Shown here: positions 6,990-33,193 of the stretch, piece after piece
Position numbering within the stretch: position 1 is the stretch's first letter
Layout of the letters: every line of letters begins with the position of its first letter
Assembly: GCA_020721225.1 (NCBI GenBank)
Contig: DYNE01000015.1
Coordinates: 1 to 46,574 of the forward strand
Reading direction: 5' to 3'
From: Pelodictyon luteolum
GTDB lineage: Bacteria > Bacteroidota > Chlorobiia > Chlorobiales > Chlorobiaceae
DNA length: 46,574 nt
The notes under the pieces: model-generated
What the model was told of the DNA's origin: nothing
What the model saw: only the letters and a program-made list of their open reading frames with translations
The model's database searches: none
Program-made: the position numbers and the translations under genes

Positions 6990-7409
6990 ATGTCATTAAA
7001 GCTATATGGAAGAGACCCGTTAAAGATGTTGGAGGATGTTTTTAACGACAAGGTATCGCCTTTTTTTTCTTCAATGATTACCCCTTCCTTCAAGGTCGAT
7101 ATCAGTGAGGATGACAAGGCTATCTATGTGTCTGCCGATATGCCGGGCATCGTAAAGGAAGATGTCAAGGTTTCCATGGAAGATGATGTTTTGTGCATAA
7201 GTGCGGAGCGGAAGCAGGAGGAGGAGGAGAAGAAAAAAGGCTATCACCGCATCGAACGTACCTGGGGAAGTATGAGCAGAAGCTTCACGGTAGGCGATAA
7301 CGTGGATGCCGAAAACATCGATGCCGCATACGATAATGGGGTTCTGAAAATTACGCTTCCTAAAAAGGAGCCCGAGCCTAAAAAAGGCAAGGAGATCGAG
7401 GTGAAGTAA
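6990..7409 (+). CDS. Small heat-shock protein, Hsp20 family
   Basis: The 139-residue protein is a typical alpha-crystallin-type holdase. The core beta-sandwich runs from about residue 30 to 125 with the conserved motifs VSADMPGIVKEDVKVSMED and YDNGVLKITLPKK, the second being the A-x-x-x-G-V-L signature. Such proteins hold unfolding proteins for later refolding. GGAG lies about nine bases before the ATG. The 141-base leader region is AT-rich; no CIRCE element is visible. The gene converges on bchE and ends at a strong shared terminator. Confidence 0.93.
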   Translation: MSLKLYGRDPLKMLEDVFNDKVSPFFSSMITPSFKVDISEDDKAIYVSADMPGIVKEDVKVSMEDDVLCISAERKQEEEEKKKGYHRIERTWGSMSRSFTVGDNVDAENIDAAYDNGVLKITLPKKEPEPKKGKEIEVK

Positions 7410-26680: not shown

Positions 26681-26750
26681 CGGTAGTCAGTAGCCGGTAG
26701 CCAGTAGCCGGTAGTCAGTAGCCGGTAGTCAGTAGCCGGTAGTCAGTAGC
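26681..26750. repeat. Five tandem copies of a 14-bp unit
   Basis: CGGTAGTCAGTAGC occurs five times in a row; the second copy has one T-to-C change. The array runs on into a G-rich segment and the 63-bp element at 26782-26844. A degenerate version of the unit recurs, inverted, at about 32598-32640. Confidence 0.9.
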
Positions 26751-26781
26751 CGGTGAAGAGGGGGGAGAGTGTGGGCGGTTG

Positions 26782-26844
26782 GCGGGTTTATTTGTCCATG
26801 TCTGTCGGTGTCCGTCCGTGTCAGTCCTTTCAGTGCATTTCGTG
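26782..26844 (-). repeat. 63-bp dispersed repeat, copy A (inverted)
   Basis: This segment is an exact reverse complement, over 63 bases, of 32497-32559. Similarity continues more loosely on both sides, so the whole element is about 180-195 bp (about 26681-26875 and 32460-32640). It occupies most of the 390-base gap between pyrK and the first arsA-like gene. Together the two copies bracket the csmC-csmA block. Confidence 0.9.
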
Positions 26845-26990
26845 AAGAAAGGGGAGAGAGTGGGCAGTGGGTGAAAACGGGGATGGATTTTTAAACGTGG
26901 AGATAAGTGTGTATGTTTCATTCTTTGTAGTGTCCGGGGAGAGTTATATCTTTTGTCTTTGCATTGTATCACAAAACCAACGTCCGGTTC

Positions 26991-28208
26991 ATGCGTATTT
27001 TAACATTTACAGGTAAAGGCGGAGTGGGTAAAACCAGCGTGTCAGCCGCAACCGCTGTCCGTTTATCAGAGTTGGGCCATCGCACACTTGTTCTTTCAAC
27101 CGATCCGGCTCACAGTCTGTCGGATTCATTCAATCTCGCTCTCGGTGCCGAACCAACCAAAATCAAGGAGAACCTGCATGCCATCGAGGTTAATCCTTAT
27201 GTTGATCTGAAGCAGAACTGGCAGTCAGTTCAGAAGTACTATACAAGAATTTTTATGGCTCAGGGCGTTTCAGGCGTCATGGCCGACGAAATGACCATTC
27301 TTCCCGGTATGGAAGAACTGTTTTCTCTCCTGCGAATCAAACGGTATAAAACCGCCGGACTGTACGATGCGCTTGTGCTCGATACCGCTCCGACCGGTGA
27401 GACCCTTCGCCTTCTCTCTCTGCCCGATACGCTTTCGTGGGGCATGAAGGCCGTTAAAAATGTCAATAAGTATATAGTCAGGCCACTCAGCAAGCCGCTG
27501 TCGAAAATGTCCGACAGGATTGCTTACTACATTCCTCCCGAAGACGCCATCGAATCGGTCGATCAGGTTTTTGACGAACTTGAGGATATTCGGGAAATTC
27601 TTACCGATAATGTGAAGTCGACCGTTCGGCTTGTCATGAACGCCGAGAAAATGTCTATCAAGGAGACCATGAGGGCTCTCACCTATCTGAATCTTTACGG
27701 CTTCAAGGTCGATATGGTTCTGGTGAACAGGCTGCTTGATACCAATGAAAACAGCGGATACCTTGAAAAATGGAAGGGTATTCAGCAGAAATATCTTGGT
27801 GAGATAGAAGAAGGGTTTTCTCCGCTTCCGGTCAAGAAGCTGAAAATGTACGAGCAGGAAATCGTCGGCTTGAAGGCTCTGGAGATGTTTGCCCGCGATA
27901 TGTACGGAGATACCGATCCCTCGGATCTCATGTACAACGAGCCGCCGATCAAGTTTGTTCGGAATGGCGATATTTATGAAGTGCAGCTGAAACTCATGTT
28001 CGCCAATCCCGTCGATATCGATGTTTGGGTTACCGGCGATGAGCTTTACGTACAGATCGGCAATCAGCGTAAAATCATTACGTTACCGATCAGCCTTACA
28101 GGTCTCGAACCAGGCGATGCGGTCTTCAAGGATAAATGGCTTCATATACCTTTTGATCTCAACCATCAGGGGAAGCATCAGAATCAGAAAGAGTTCAACA
28201 AAGTGTGA
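26991..28208 (+). CDS. ArsA/Get3-like ATPase with C-terminal Hsp20-like domain (copy 1)
   Basis: From the ATG at 26991 the protein has 405 residues; an in-frame TTG at 26964 would only add a poor leader, and the second copy also begins MRI. The deviant P-loop [16 protein letters not shown], switch I STDPAHSLSDSFNL and switch II DTAPTGETLRLL are intact. About residues 320-395 (FVRNGDIYEVQLKLMFANPV, VWVTGDELYVQIGN) form the Hsp20-like domain known from bacterial ArsA homologues. The CxxC of eukaryotic Get3 is absent and so are arsenite-site cysteine patterns, so arsenic export is unlikely. Get3 relatives carry hydrophobic proteins to membranes. With csmC and csmA following, a role in chlorosome protein delivery is inferred. 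Confidence 0.85.
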   Translation: MRILTFTGKGGVGKTSVSAATAVRLSELGHRTLVLSTDPAHSLSDSFNLALGAEPTKIKENLHAIEVNPYVDLKQNWQSVQKYYTRIFMAQGVSGVMADEMTILPGMEELFSLLRIKRYKTAGLYDALVLDTAPTGETLRLLSLPDTLSWGMKAVKNVNKYIVRPLSKPLSKMSDRIAYYIPPEDAIESVDQVFDELEDIREILTDNVKSTVRLVMNAEKMSIKETMRALTYLNLYGFKVDMVLVNRLLDTNENSGYLEKWKGIQQKYLGEIEEGFSPLPVKKLKMYEQEIVGLKALEMFARDMYGDTDPSDLMYNEPPIKFVRNGDIYEVQLKLMFANPVDIDVWVTGDELYVQIGNQRKIITLPISLTGLEPGDAVFKDKWLHIPFDLNHQGKHQNQKEFNKV

Positions 28209-28347: not shown

Positions 28348-28767
28348 ATGTCAGAATCCTATCAGAAACTTCGCAAAGACTTTAAAGAGCTTGATTTTAC
28401 CGATCGCCTCACCTTTCTTGCCGAGAGCGTCCTGTTGACCGGCCAGAGTGCCGTCGTTGGTGGTCTCGAGCTTGCCGGAAGTGTGGTTGAAACCGTTACC
28501 GGCACAGTCGGTTCTCTTATTGATGCATCGGGAGTGGGCAATATGCTTGGCCGTACCGGTGGCGTTGTCGGAGAAACCATCGACAGGGTTGCCATTACAG
28601 TCAAGGACGTTTCCCGTTCTGCCGGTGAACTGTACAGCGATGCTGTGAAAAATGTCGAGAATGTTACCGATAACGCAGCCAAAGCGATCGGCGATGCAGG
28701 AGTCACAGCTTCGGAAGCAGTCAAGAATATCGCAGGTTCTTTCCAGAAAGGCGCACCGAAAAAATAA
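28348..28767 (+). CDS. csmC: Chlorosome envelope protein CsmC
   Basis: The 139-residue protein has a charged N-terminus ([20 protein letters not shown]), a Gly/Val-rich hydrophobic middle ([20 protein letters not shown]) and an Ala/Val-rich amphipathic tail ending PKK. Size (about 14 kDa), composition and position before csmA match CsmC. It is a non-pigment protein of the chlorosome envelope that affects chlorosome shape. GGAG precedes the ATG by about nine bases. In C. tepidum csmC and csmA form one operon, and the 128-base spacing here agrees. CsmC and CsmD are paralogues; position makes CsmC the choice. Confidence 0.88.
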
Positions 28768-28895: not shown

Positions 28896-29141
28896 ATGAG
28901 TGGTGGAGGTGTATTTACCGATATCCTGGCAGCAGCTGGCCGTATTTTTGAAGTTATGGTCGAAGGTCACTGGGAAACCGTTGGGATGCTGTTTGATTCA
29001 CTGGGCAAAGGTACCATGAGAATCAACCGCAATGCTTACGGAAATATGGGCGGCGGTGGCGGAAGCCTTCGCGGATCATCGCCTGAAGTTTCAGGTTATG
29101 CTGTTCCAACCAAAGCAGTTGAATCAAAGTTTGCAAAATAA
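28896..29141 (+). CDS. csmA: Chlorosome baseplate protein CsmA (pre-protein)
   Basis: The 81-residue precursor is plainly CsmA. It begins [20 protein letters not shown] and carries the bacteriochlorophyll-a ligand His25 in VEGHW. The mature form is about 59 residues and binds one BChl a plus carotenoid, forming the paracrystalline baseplate that passes energy from the chlorosome to the FMO protein. The C-terminal 20 or so residues (from about SSPEVSG to SKFAK) are removed in the mature protein of relatives. A perfect AGGAGG lies seven bases before the start, the strongest ribosome site of the region. A strong terminator follows. The protease for the tail is not obvious here. Confidence 0.97.
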
Positions 29142-29402: not shown

Positions 29403-31199
29403 ATGGCCACTATTTCTTTATATATTTCCGGGCAGACAGAACTGAACGACGTCAATGAGTTTTTTCAGAAGAACCTCATGAATGCCGGTGAAAATCCTAT
29501 AGCTTTTTTTGATGGGGTTTTTTACGAATCTCATCAGGAGCGGGTAGGCAATATTGTTTTTCAGGATTATCTGGTCTACACCGATAAGGCTGTTTACCTC
29601 TGGGCAAGAGGCGCAAACAAGGATTATCTCGATCGATTCAATCTCGGGACCGTTTCAGTCAACAGCAGGAACAAGGACAGCGCTTTTGCAACGCTCAATC
29701 TCAAGGTCAGGCGTGAAGAAAAAGAACCTGTGTATGTGATTTTCGACATGGTCGAAATACAGGAGGCTGAACTGATTACCAGGCTGCATACGATTATCGA
29801 GTCAACTATTGAAGAAGCGCTTGGGGTCAATTACCGCAAGGATATTCCTGATGCCATTGCCGGGAGAATTCTTCAGGCAGGCAGAGGGATCTGTCCTCAG
29901 CAATCGATTTCAATCGCTTTTGATCAGGGAGCTGCCGTACATCAGGAGAGCAATATCGGCTACGGTCAGGATCTGCTCGAACAGTACAAGGCTTCCATTG
30001 GGTATCCACCTTCGGAAGAGAAGCCGGAACAAGCTCCCCGGCAGCAGCGCCCATCTTCTCAGGGCCATTCAGGCTCTCCGTTTTCGGGAAATCCTGCGGC
30101 TGATGCGCTCAAAGGTCTCGAAAATATTCTTCCTGCCGATCCGGCAGCTCTCAAGCGGATTGCCTCCTCTATAAAAGATATGGTCGGTGAAGCTCCCTTC
30201 AAGCTTCGCGATCAGGTTATGAAAGATCTGCAGCACGTTCCGGGAGATGTCGCTACGGTACTGACGGCGCTTAATGAATTGCTTGCCAATATTGCAGGGA
30301 ATCCGCAGGCCGAGCGTTTCGTCATGACGGCCATTACCACGGCGGTCAGAAATGACGGAGTATTGGGCTCTATCGGAAAAATGCTCAAGCTTACCACAGG
30401 TTTCGGTTCAGGCGGAGGTAAAAAGCAACCATCAAGGCAGGCGTCGGAAAATGACCGGCATGGGCGTGATACCGATTCGTCGCGCAACGATCGGCGCTCT
30501 TCTTTTGATGATGGGGATGACAACTCGACTATCCGCAGAAAAAAAATAACGATCAAGGACGATTCGTCTTCGCATGGTTCCGGTATGTTTTCCGGCGATC
30601 TTCCCGATGATGAGGGTTTGCCTCTTCCAGGTGATCGAAGCCACCGGAACATTGCTTCGGATAATGATGCAGAGAGCGGTATAAAACGTAAAAAAATCAG
30701 CATCAAGGCTGACGACAGTTCAGCATCGGCACTCGTCAAAGATATGATGGCCATGGACACCCCTCCGTCAGAAGCTGTATTTTCACCGGTACAGCCCGGA
30801 GAGGAGCCGCCGGTTCGCCGTAAAAAAATTACTATTGTTGCTGATACCGCTGAAACGGCAGGAAAGGGTTCATTATCCGATTATTCGGAAACATCGGAGG
30901 TACAAGCGCCAATCGCTGATTCCATTCCGGAAGAACGTCCGGTTCAGCGCAAAAAAATAGCTATAGTAGTCGAGAAACCCGAAGACGATGAGACTGGTAT
31001 TTCTGAAGAGATGCTTGCCGGTGTACTTGGCGAATCAGCCGTCGGTCAGGAACGTGCAGTGGTTTATACAACCATAGAGTCCGACAGCTCAGTTGATATG
31101 GAAAATCAGGCAGAGTCAGGCAGTTCCGGCGCCGATAATACAACGGCATCCGATGAACCGCCCATGAATCGTACAATCAAGATCAAGTCTACTCAATAG
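29403..31199 (+). CDS. PH-like domain protein with repeated RKKI basic motifs, unrecognised
   Basis: The 598-residue protein is not a family I can name. Residues about 1-140 resemble the bacterial PH-like fold (beta-rich, [18 protein letters not shown], ending in an amphipathic helix). Residues about 230-345 form a helical domain ([35 protein letters not shown]). The C-terminal half is acidic and probably disordered. It carries five short basic beta-like motifs at about residues 376, 425, 469, 512 and 588: [36 protein letters not shown] and NRTIKIK, roughly 45 residues apart. No signal peptide is seen. It lies between csmA and the second ATPase gene, so an adaptor or scaffold for chlorosome or membrane assembly is inferred. 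Confidence 0.65.
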
Positions 31200-31212: not shown

Positions 31213-32367
31213 ATGAGAATTATTCTTTATCTAGGGAAGGGAGGGGTTGGAAAAACCACCGTCTCAGCTTCAACGGCAACTGCAATTGCCCGTCGTGGAG
31301 AGCGTGTGCTGATAATGAGCACCGATGTGGCCCACAGCCTTGCTGATGCGTTCAGCGAGGAATTAAGCCAGAATCCGATTGAGGTAGAAAAAAACCTTTT
31401 TGCCATGGAGGTAAACGTTCTTGCTGAAATCAGGGAGAACTGGACGGAACTCTATTCCTATTTTTCGTCGATTCTTATGCATGACGGGGCCAATGAGGTC
31501 GTGGCAGAAGAGCTTGCCATCGTGCCGGGCATGGAAGAGATGATCAGCCTCCGTTACATCTGGAAAGCGGCGAAGTCAGGAAATTACGATGTCATTATTG
31601 TCGATGCGGCCCCAACCGGTGAAACCATGCGTTTGCTGGGTATGCCTGAATCTTACGGTTGGTACTCTGATAAGATAGGCGGCTGGCACTCAAAGGCGAT
31701 AGGCTTTGCCGCTCCTCTGCTTTCAAAGTTCATGCCGAAAAAGAACATCTTCAAGCTGATGCCCGAGGTCAACGAGCATATGAAAGAGTTGCACGGCATG
31801 CTTCAGGATCAGAACGTCACCACATTCCGCGTTGTGCTCAACCCCGAGAATATGGTCATCAAGGAGGCTCTTCGGGTGCAGACCTATCTGAATCTGTTCG
31901 GGTATAAGCTCGATGCAGCCGTGGTGAACAAAATTCTTCCCGAAAGCTCCGCCGATCAGTATCTGCAGAGCCTGATCGACATTCAGCAGAAATATCTCCG
32001 GGTCATCGATAACTGTTTCTATCCGGTACCGATTTTCCGGGCTCATCAGCAGACAGCCGAGGTGATCAATACCGACCGTCTTCATGTTCTGAGTCAGGAG
32101 ATTTTTGGCGATAAAAATCCCTCCGCGGTTCTCTACAGCAACGACAAGACTCAGACTCTCGAAAAAATAAACGGAAAATATGTTCTCAGCCTCTATCTTC
32201 CGAATGTCGAGGTCAAGAAGCTCAATGTCAACATCAAGGGAGATGAACTGCTTGTCGATATCAATAATTTCCGCAAAAGCATTATTCTTCCGAACGTGCT
32301 CGTCGGCAGAAAAACCGAAGGAGCCGATTTTGCGGCCGGGAACCTGAATATCACTTTTGCCAACTGA
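31213..32367 (+). CDS. ArsA/Get3-like ATPase with C-terminal Hsp20-like domain (copy 2)
   Basis: The 384-residue protein has the same design as copy 1: deviant P-loop [16 protein letters not shown], switch [13 protein letters not shown] (Pro of DPAH is Val), switch [18 protein letters not shown], and a C-terminal Hsp20-like domain ([20 protein letters not shown]). Like copy 1 it lacks the zinc CxxC of Get3. Its helical client-binding region differs markedly from copy 1 ([20 protein letters not shown]), so the two may bind different clients or form a heterodimer. It starts 13 bases after the repeat-protein gene and is co-transcribed with it. Confidence 0.85.
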
Positions 32368-32496
32368 TTTTTCCCCGAACATTTTTTTCACTCCACACTA
32401 CCTGCAGCGGGCAGCATCCTTACGGAATGCTGCCCGTTTTATTTGCAACGTGTGGGCGTCGGCTCATAGCCCACGACCCACACTTTCTCCCCTCTG

Positions 32497-32559
32497 CACG
32501 AAATGCACTGAAAGGACTGACACGGACGGACACCGACAGACATGGACAAATAAACCCGC
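32497..32559 (+). repeat. 63-bp dispersed repeat, copy B
   Basis: Exact reverse complement of 26782-26844. It lies between the second ArsA-like gene and folK. The flanking T/C-rich and ACTGGCTACTGAC-type sequences also match copy A loosely in inverted order. The tail of folK is written in this element. Confidence 0.9.
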
Positions 32560-32611
32560 ACACCGCTCAAACTCTTTCCCTCTTCCCCGAATACCGGCTA
32601 CCGAATACTGG

Positions 32612-33193
32612 CTACTGACTTCCGGTTTCCGGCTCACGGCTCACATCCCTCATCGCTATCCGCTCGCGCAGTCTGATCAGAACCGAACGGTCAGGACAGA
32701 CGTCGAGGAGAGAGGATGCCGGGCAGTGGAGCTGTGGATGTTCGGGATCGGCAAGATCGAGCAGAGGTATCAATACAAACATCCGGTTAATCAGCTCCTT
32801 ATGAGGGATGCAGAGTACGCTGTTTTCTAAGGTAAGATCATCGTAGAGCAGAATATCCAAATCGATTACCCTCGGACTCCACCGGATATACTGTTCAGGC
32901 CTGCCGAGATTGTGTTCTATGGCTTTGCAGTGTGTCCGCAGGTTTTCAGGTGAAAGTCCGGTTTCGAGCCGCACCACTCCGTTATAGAACCGTTCCTGTT
33001 CCGTGACGCCGACCGGTTCGGTTATGTAGATTCCCGATATTCCGTTTACCTCCGTATTCGGCAGCCGGTTCAGCAGGTCAACCGCCTCCTGAAGATGTTT
33101 GAGTCGATCGCCGATATTGGAGCCTATGCCGAGGTAAACCGTATGGCGCGGCGCTGGTTCAGCTTCGTGCCGCTGAGAAGCATGCTTCTGCAT
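32612..33193 (-). CDS. folK: 2-amino-4-hydroxy-6-hydroxymethyldihydropteridine pyrophosphokinase
   Basis: The 193-residue enzyme transfers pyrophosphate from ATP to the pterin in folate synthesis. It has the HPPK motifs [15 protein letters not shown] at the N-terminus and the signature [19 protein letters not shown] with the Mg-binding Asp pair in DLDILL. The substrate segment [19 protein letters not shown] follows. It overlaps folB by 35 bases, so the two are coupled. The last ten or so codons (SREPETGSQ) run into the dispersed repeat, which supplies the stop codon; the end of the gene is therefore probably altered from the ancestral form. Confidence 0.92.

Follow-up and report, generated by a model that had tools for sequence, protein, structure and literature searches.

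The gene at 29403..31199 of the window (forward strand), by which we mean the whole stretch of 46,574 nucleotides from Pelodictyon luteolum analysed here, encodes a protein of 598 amino acids (hereafter MOT) that joins a PH-like N-terminus and a helical middle to an acidic, predicted disordered tail with five short I-x-I motifs, and that stands between the chlorosome genes csmC and csmA on one side and a Get3d-type ATPase gene on the other in every complete locus that we compared. We propose that MOT is a multivalent docking scaffold that holds Get3d-type ATPases through the I-x-I motifs of its tail, a reading that we put at slightly below an even chance.

The motif protein and its neighbours

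The reading frame opens with ATG, and the downstream ATPase gene starts at 31213, 13 bases past its end, in agreement with the earlier note on this DNA, which had given a 598-residue frame at this distance from a second ATPase. That note had also called the protein unrecognised, and our searches bear this out: at E<=1, MOT had no match in Pfam or NCBIfam, and none in the PDB apart from one at E=0.26 that falls in the low-complexity tail. No member was found in the phage collection, and a literature search on Chlorobaculum tepidum CT1940-CT1945, which we take to be the locus numbers in that organism, turned up only csmC, in a vesicle proteome. None of the libraries searched annotates the MOT family; the docking principle itself is already known.

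The five-gene cluster, all on the forward strand, begins with a Get3d-type ATPase that has a C-terminal alpha-crystallin domain (26991..28208, the start taken from orthologues; PF02374 E=1e-117, PF17886 ArsA_HSP20 E=5e-20). It continues with csmC for chlorosome envelope protein C (28348..28767; PF11098 E=1e-72), csmA for the bacteriochlorophyll-binding chlorosome baseplate protein (28896..29141; PF02043 E=3e-36) and MOT, and ends with the second Get3d-type ATPase (31213..32367; PF02374 E=8.5e-84), whose alpha-crystallin (ArsA_HSP20) domain, with its beta4 and beta8 equivalents, lies at 32143..32364 (PF17886 E=2.4e-18). Both flanking ATPases, the proposed partners, have the Get3d architecture of a Get3/ArsA ATPase followed by an alpha-crystallin domain, and a modelled orthologue of the downstream one found NosGet3d (8egk) as its best Foldseek match. 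Compared with its counterparts in the deep families of the class, the downstream alpha-crystallin domain of the window shows 56-64% identity. An inverted repeat lies on both sides of the cluster (window 26692-26871 and 32470-32641; 111 nt at 87% plus a second arm), and a third long copy occurs elsewhere in the genome. The genome (G000) has seven Get3d-like ATPases with ArsA_HSP20 domains (loci L141-L147; L149-L153), and the ATPase of L150 is 88% identical to the one upstream of csmC. At the other Get3d loci of the genome, with five further genes, the stretches read contained no further protein of the MOT kind.

Domain structure of MOT

An AlphaFold2 model built on 23 Chlorobiaceae sequences, which ended at residue 346 and thus short of the motifs, shows residues 1-172 (29403..29918) as folded, with a pLDDT of about 75-95 over most of their length. 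The modelled head has strands at 32-42, 54-60, 63-69, 75-80, 84-92, 95-102 and 110-118 and a long closing helix at 119-140, that is, as a prediction, the seven-stranded barrel with C-terminal capping helix of the PH-like superfamily. The best PDB matches in Foldseek were PH-, PTB- and SsgB-like domains at E about 1e-4 with modest single-match TM-scores, hSac2, the PH domains of kindlin and Vps36 and the PTB domain of CCM2 among them. By sequence the head matched no curated PH family or PDB chain at E<=1 (Pfam, NCBIfam and PDB profile search); it is the predicted topology and the structural matches that lend weight to the earlier description of the N-terminus as PH-like. The alignment then shows a conserved linker segment (residues 185-199; 29955..29999), in which Y187, G188 and L192 are invariant in 31 sequences including the deep families, where the YG..L core is kept, and a conserved block at about residues 230-331 (30090..30395), modelled with low confidence as a middle domain of six helices.

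Five basic motifs had been noticed in the C-terminal half, and we locate four of the form RKKI-x-I, namely RKKITI at residues 379-384 (30537..30554), RKKISI at 429-434 (30687..30704), RKKITI at 473-478 (30819..30836) and RKKIAI at 516-521 (30948..30965), all on the forward strand like the fifth, RTIKI at 590-594 (31170..31184), whose place near the C-terminus matches that of the single motif in most deep-family orthologues. The interval of about 45 residues once given for all of them describes the first four (50, 44 and 43), but not the last spacing of 74. The tail had further been taken as acidic and probably disordered, and residues 346-598 of the window protein indeed hold 51 D+E against 32 K+R, merely 12 of the latter outside the motifs, while disorder is predicted from the tail of the orthologue L052, with an AlphaFold2 pLDDT of 22-36. 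Several of the I-x-I motifs are followed by another short motif, LVKDMMxMD or IARKLMSYDE, which resembles a small amphipathic helix, in the window protein at about residues 440-455 and also in Chlorobaculum tails.

Motif conservation and the I-x-I reading

A DNA pattern for [R]KKI-x-I has four matches in the window against 0.06 expected, and all four lie inside the MOT gene. Across the whole genome there are ten matches, of which four are in MOT and six in reading frames of 23-87 codons; no other open reading frame of more than 100 codons in this genome has the strict motif. The tails of 85 orthologues together hold 263 motifs, compared with 2.6 expected after residue shuffling, and none occurs within residues 1-330 of the orthologues. 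On the window, genome and shuffled-tail counts, we reject a chance origin of the motif. Its consensus is [RK]-K-[KS]-I-x-[IV]-K-x-[DE]-[DE], and throughout the 85 tails both I positions are restricted to I/V/L, the middle position is variable and the flanks are basic.

Because two aliphatic residues stand one apart around a variable middle in a flexible, basic segment, as they do in I-x-I ligands and here in the 263 motifs of the 85 tails, we read the tail motif as an I-x-I motif. Alpha-crystallin domains bind such motifs in the groove between beta4 and beta8, and small heat-shock proteins (sHsps) are proven acceptors (PMC6212398). The reading is supported by the sHsps of this lineage, whose tails end in K-x-K-E-I-x-V-K (KKGKEIEVK in the window sHsp, KKTKEISIR in the second) and so come close to RKKISIK, and by the alpha-crystallin domains in both neighbours of MOT. 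MOT itself matched neither PF00011 nor PF17886; it has no alpha-crystallin domain by these profiles and does not qualify as an sHsp.

Distribution, gene order and motif number

MOT is a single-copy protein family of the class of green sulfur bacteria: 89 of its 98 genomes, from nine of nine genera, have the gene, and about 300 genomes from elsewhere in the phylum all lack it. We do not regard the nine class genomes without MOT as counter-examples: in seven of them csmC is missing from the assembly too, and in the other two the contig ends nearby, within 300 bases after csmA in G017 and 214 bases from csmC in G072. Among 88 distinct orthologues, 79 loci contain all five genes, and all 79 have them on one strand in the order Get3d-csmC-csmA-MOT-Get3d, with a gap of 7-123 bp between MOT and the downstream ATPase. 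The link to csmCA and the ATPases, first suggested for a single locus, is therefore conserved; every complete orthologue also keeps the motif, and its number varies from 1 to 8 copies while the motif stays constant, as had been predicted.

In the deep families, where ten orthologues are complete (L062 is cut by a contig end), nine of the ten proteins have just one motif, at the C-terminus or close to it, such as ...KKKIKIRIE or ...RKKIKINIG, and L054 has a second one, RKKVKV at 428, ahead of its terminal KRKKVKI. Chlorobium and its relatives mostly have 2-5 motifs and Chlorobaculum-like genomes 4-8, in counts that vary with the pattern used; L057 carries a looser motif, KRIKI. In the locus L044 (6129-6591) a 93-bp unit that carries one KKIRI motif is present in five copies in tandem, a repeat that marks a recent expansion of the tail and from which we conclude that motif copies arise by tandem duplication, with the motif kept. 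The longest orthologue found, of 1036 residues with seven motifs, occurs in L049 and L067.

Proposed docking on Get3d-type ATPases

We favour the ATPases as the partner of the tail because its I-x-I motifs, a feature that the earlier note had not named as such, match the alpha-crystallin domain that both of them carry. In either flanking ATPase, the beta4/beta8 groove of this domain would accept any of the [RK]-K-[KS]-I-x-[IV]-K elements as an additional strand, and several motifs per chain would gather several Get3d dimers, or both kinds. The PH-like head would position this assembly, probably at the inner membrane or the nascent chlorosome, where Get3d could take charge of hydrophobic proteins of the chlorosome, CsmA and CsmC among them. 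We infer the docking, the choice of ATPase bound and the role at the chlorosome, the last of them solely from the gene neighbourhood.

The beta4 and beta8 strands that such a partner needs are indicated by PF17886 in both neighbours and by the profile of the downstream domain, which aligns with the lineage sHsps over beta3, beta4, beta8 and beta9 and leaves a gap where the beta6 loop would be, though as a weak match (hhalign E=0.003, probability just 9.8%). In Get3d the alpha-crystallin domain, which is without a beta6 loop, is packed against the dimer of the ATPase (PMC10248533), so the groove may not be free. When the five-motif tail of L052 was modelled with AlphaFold2 as read through into the ATPase, the ATPase took the Get3d fold and no motif was placed as a strand, which lowered our confidence in docking, even if a single monomeric chain with a shallow alignment and an ATPase at only about 75 pLDDT makes a weak test. 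The earlier idea of multivalent docking of a partner, for instance an ATPase or the chlorosome surface, is partly supported: the motifs fit the ATPase domains, but the fusion model showed no docking. The weak sHsp profile match also counts against a scaffold of this kind, as do the five other Get3d genes without a MOT-like protein nearby.

The sHsps, as acceptors of the I-x-I type, could be what the motifs bind instead of Get3d, in which case MOT would recruit or cap sHsps near the chlorosome. An HSP20 protein is present in all 41 class genomes tested, most of which have two, and the sHsp tails resemble the motif, but sHsp genes were not found beside MOT (that of the window, at 6990-7409, lies 22 kb upstream), whereas the ATPases are neighbours of MOT in all complete loci. 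The residue before the first I, moreover, is mostly E in the sHsp tails and K or S in the MOT motifs, and we consider this alternative, which would resemble BAG3, unlikely. Just as improbable in our judgement is a role with no protein groove involved, in which acidic lipid or pigment of the chlorosome envelope would be the ligand of the basic patches, or the patches would make the protein self-associate or condense. Basic motifs in an acidic, disordered chain next to chlorosome envelope genes would suit such a role, but charge needs no I/V/L at two alternate positions, and the constraint on I-x-[IV] is no weaker than that on the basic residues.

The linkage of csmC and csmA to MOT is as tight as that of the ATPases, and the motifs might dock another protein, for example CsmA or CsmC, with shared regulation as the only link to the ATPases; CsmA and CsmC, however, have no known peptide-binding groove, and the recognised acceptor fold is in the ATPases, which leaves this option a shade less credible still. 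The motifs might also bind MOT's own PH/PTB-like head, in cis or in trans, and so cause autoinhibition or build polymers, head to tail, on the membrane or the chlorosome. In favour of this, PTB-like folds take up peptides by strand addition, the Foldseek matches of the head include PTB domains, and head and tail always occur together in the aligned orthologues. Such binding would leave the strict pairing with two alpha-crystallin ATPases unexplained, however, and of the alternatives we hold it the least probable.

Docking on the Get3d-type ATPases, if it occurs, could make MOT part of a larger and, in our view, rather doubtful picture: a lineage-specific, GET-like hub, in which a scaffold whose alpha-crystallin-docking motifs have grown in number from one to eight would bring Get3d together for the insertion or assembly of chlorosome envelope proteins. 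The partners of Get3d and the role of its alpha-crystallin domain have been stated to be unknown, and binding of tail-anchored proteins is reported for AtGet3d and NosGet3d only (PMC10248533). Such a hub would give the domain its first function and the green sulfur bacteria a dedicated pathway of chlorosome assembly. MOT is a testable candidate partner for Get3d, being obligately linked to it and having motifs of the kind that such domains bind, and it offers a first handle on the route of CsmA and CsmC to the chlorosome.

Comparison with known systems

The C-terminal I-x-I tails of sHsps share with MOT a basic stretch followed by I-x-[IV]-K, which is C-terminal in the deep-family orthologues too; unlike them, MOT has multiple internal copies and no alpha-crystallin domain, so that its motif would act in trans. 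NosGet3d and AtGet3d (8egk, 8elf) have the same Get3 plus alpha-crystallin architecture as the flanking ATPases, but their structures come without an identified partner, whereas MOT is proposed as one here. In the eukaryotic GET pathway, the Get4/Get5 hub resembles MOT in that MOT, too, would serve to organise an ATPase of the Get3 family as its partner, and the Get4 site on Get3 is the one taken in cis by the alpha-crystallin domain of Get3d (PMC10248533); the architecture of MOT is different, however, with no sequence match to any PDB chain beyond the low-complexity one given above. The eukaryotic co-chaperone BAG3 scaffolds sHsps by two IPV motifs (PMC6297355) and, like MOT, is a disordered scaffold with more than one motif of I-x-I/V type, proposed in the case of MOT to hold alpha-crystallin domains. 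MOT differs in being bacterial, in having no BAG domain match, 1-8 motifs and a PH-like head, and in that its proposed acceptor is fused to an ATPase, and its docking would carry multivalent I-x-I scaffolding, of which BAG3 is the example found, over to bacteria.
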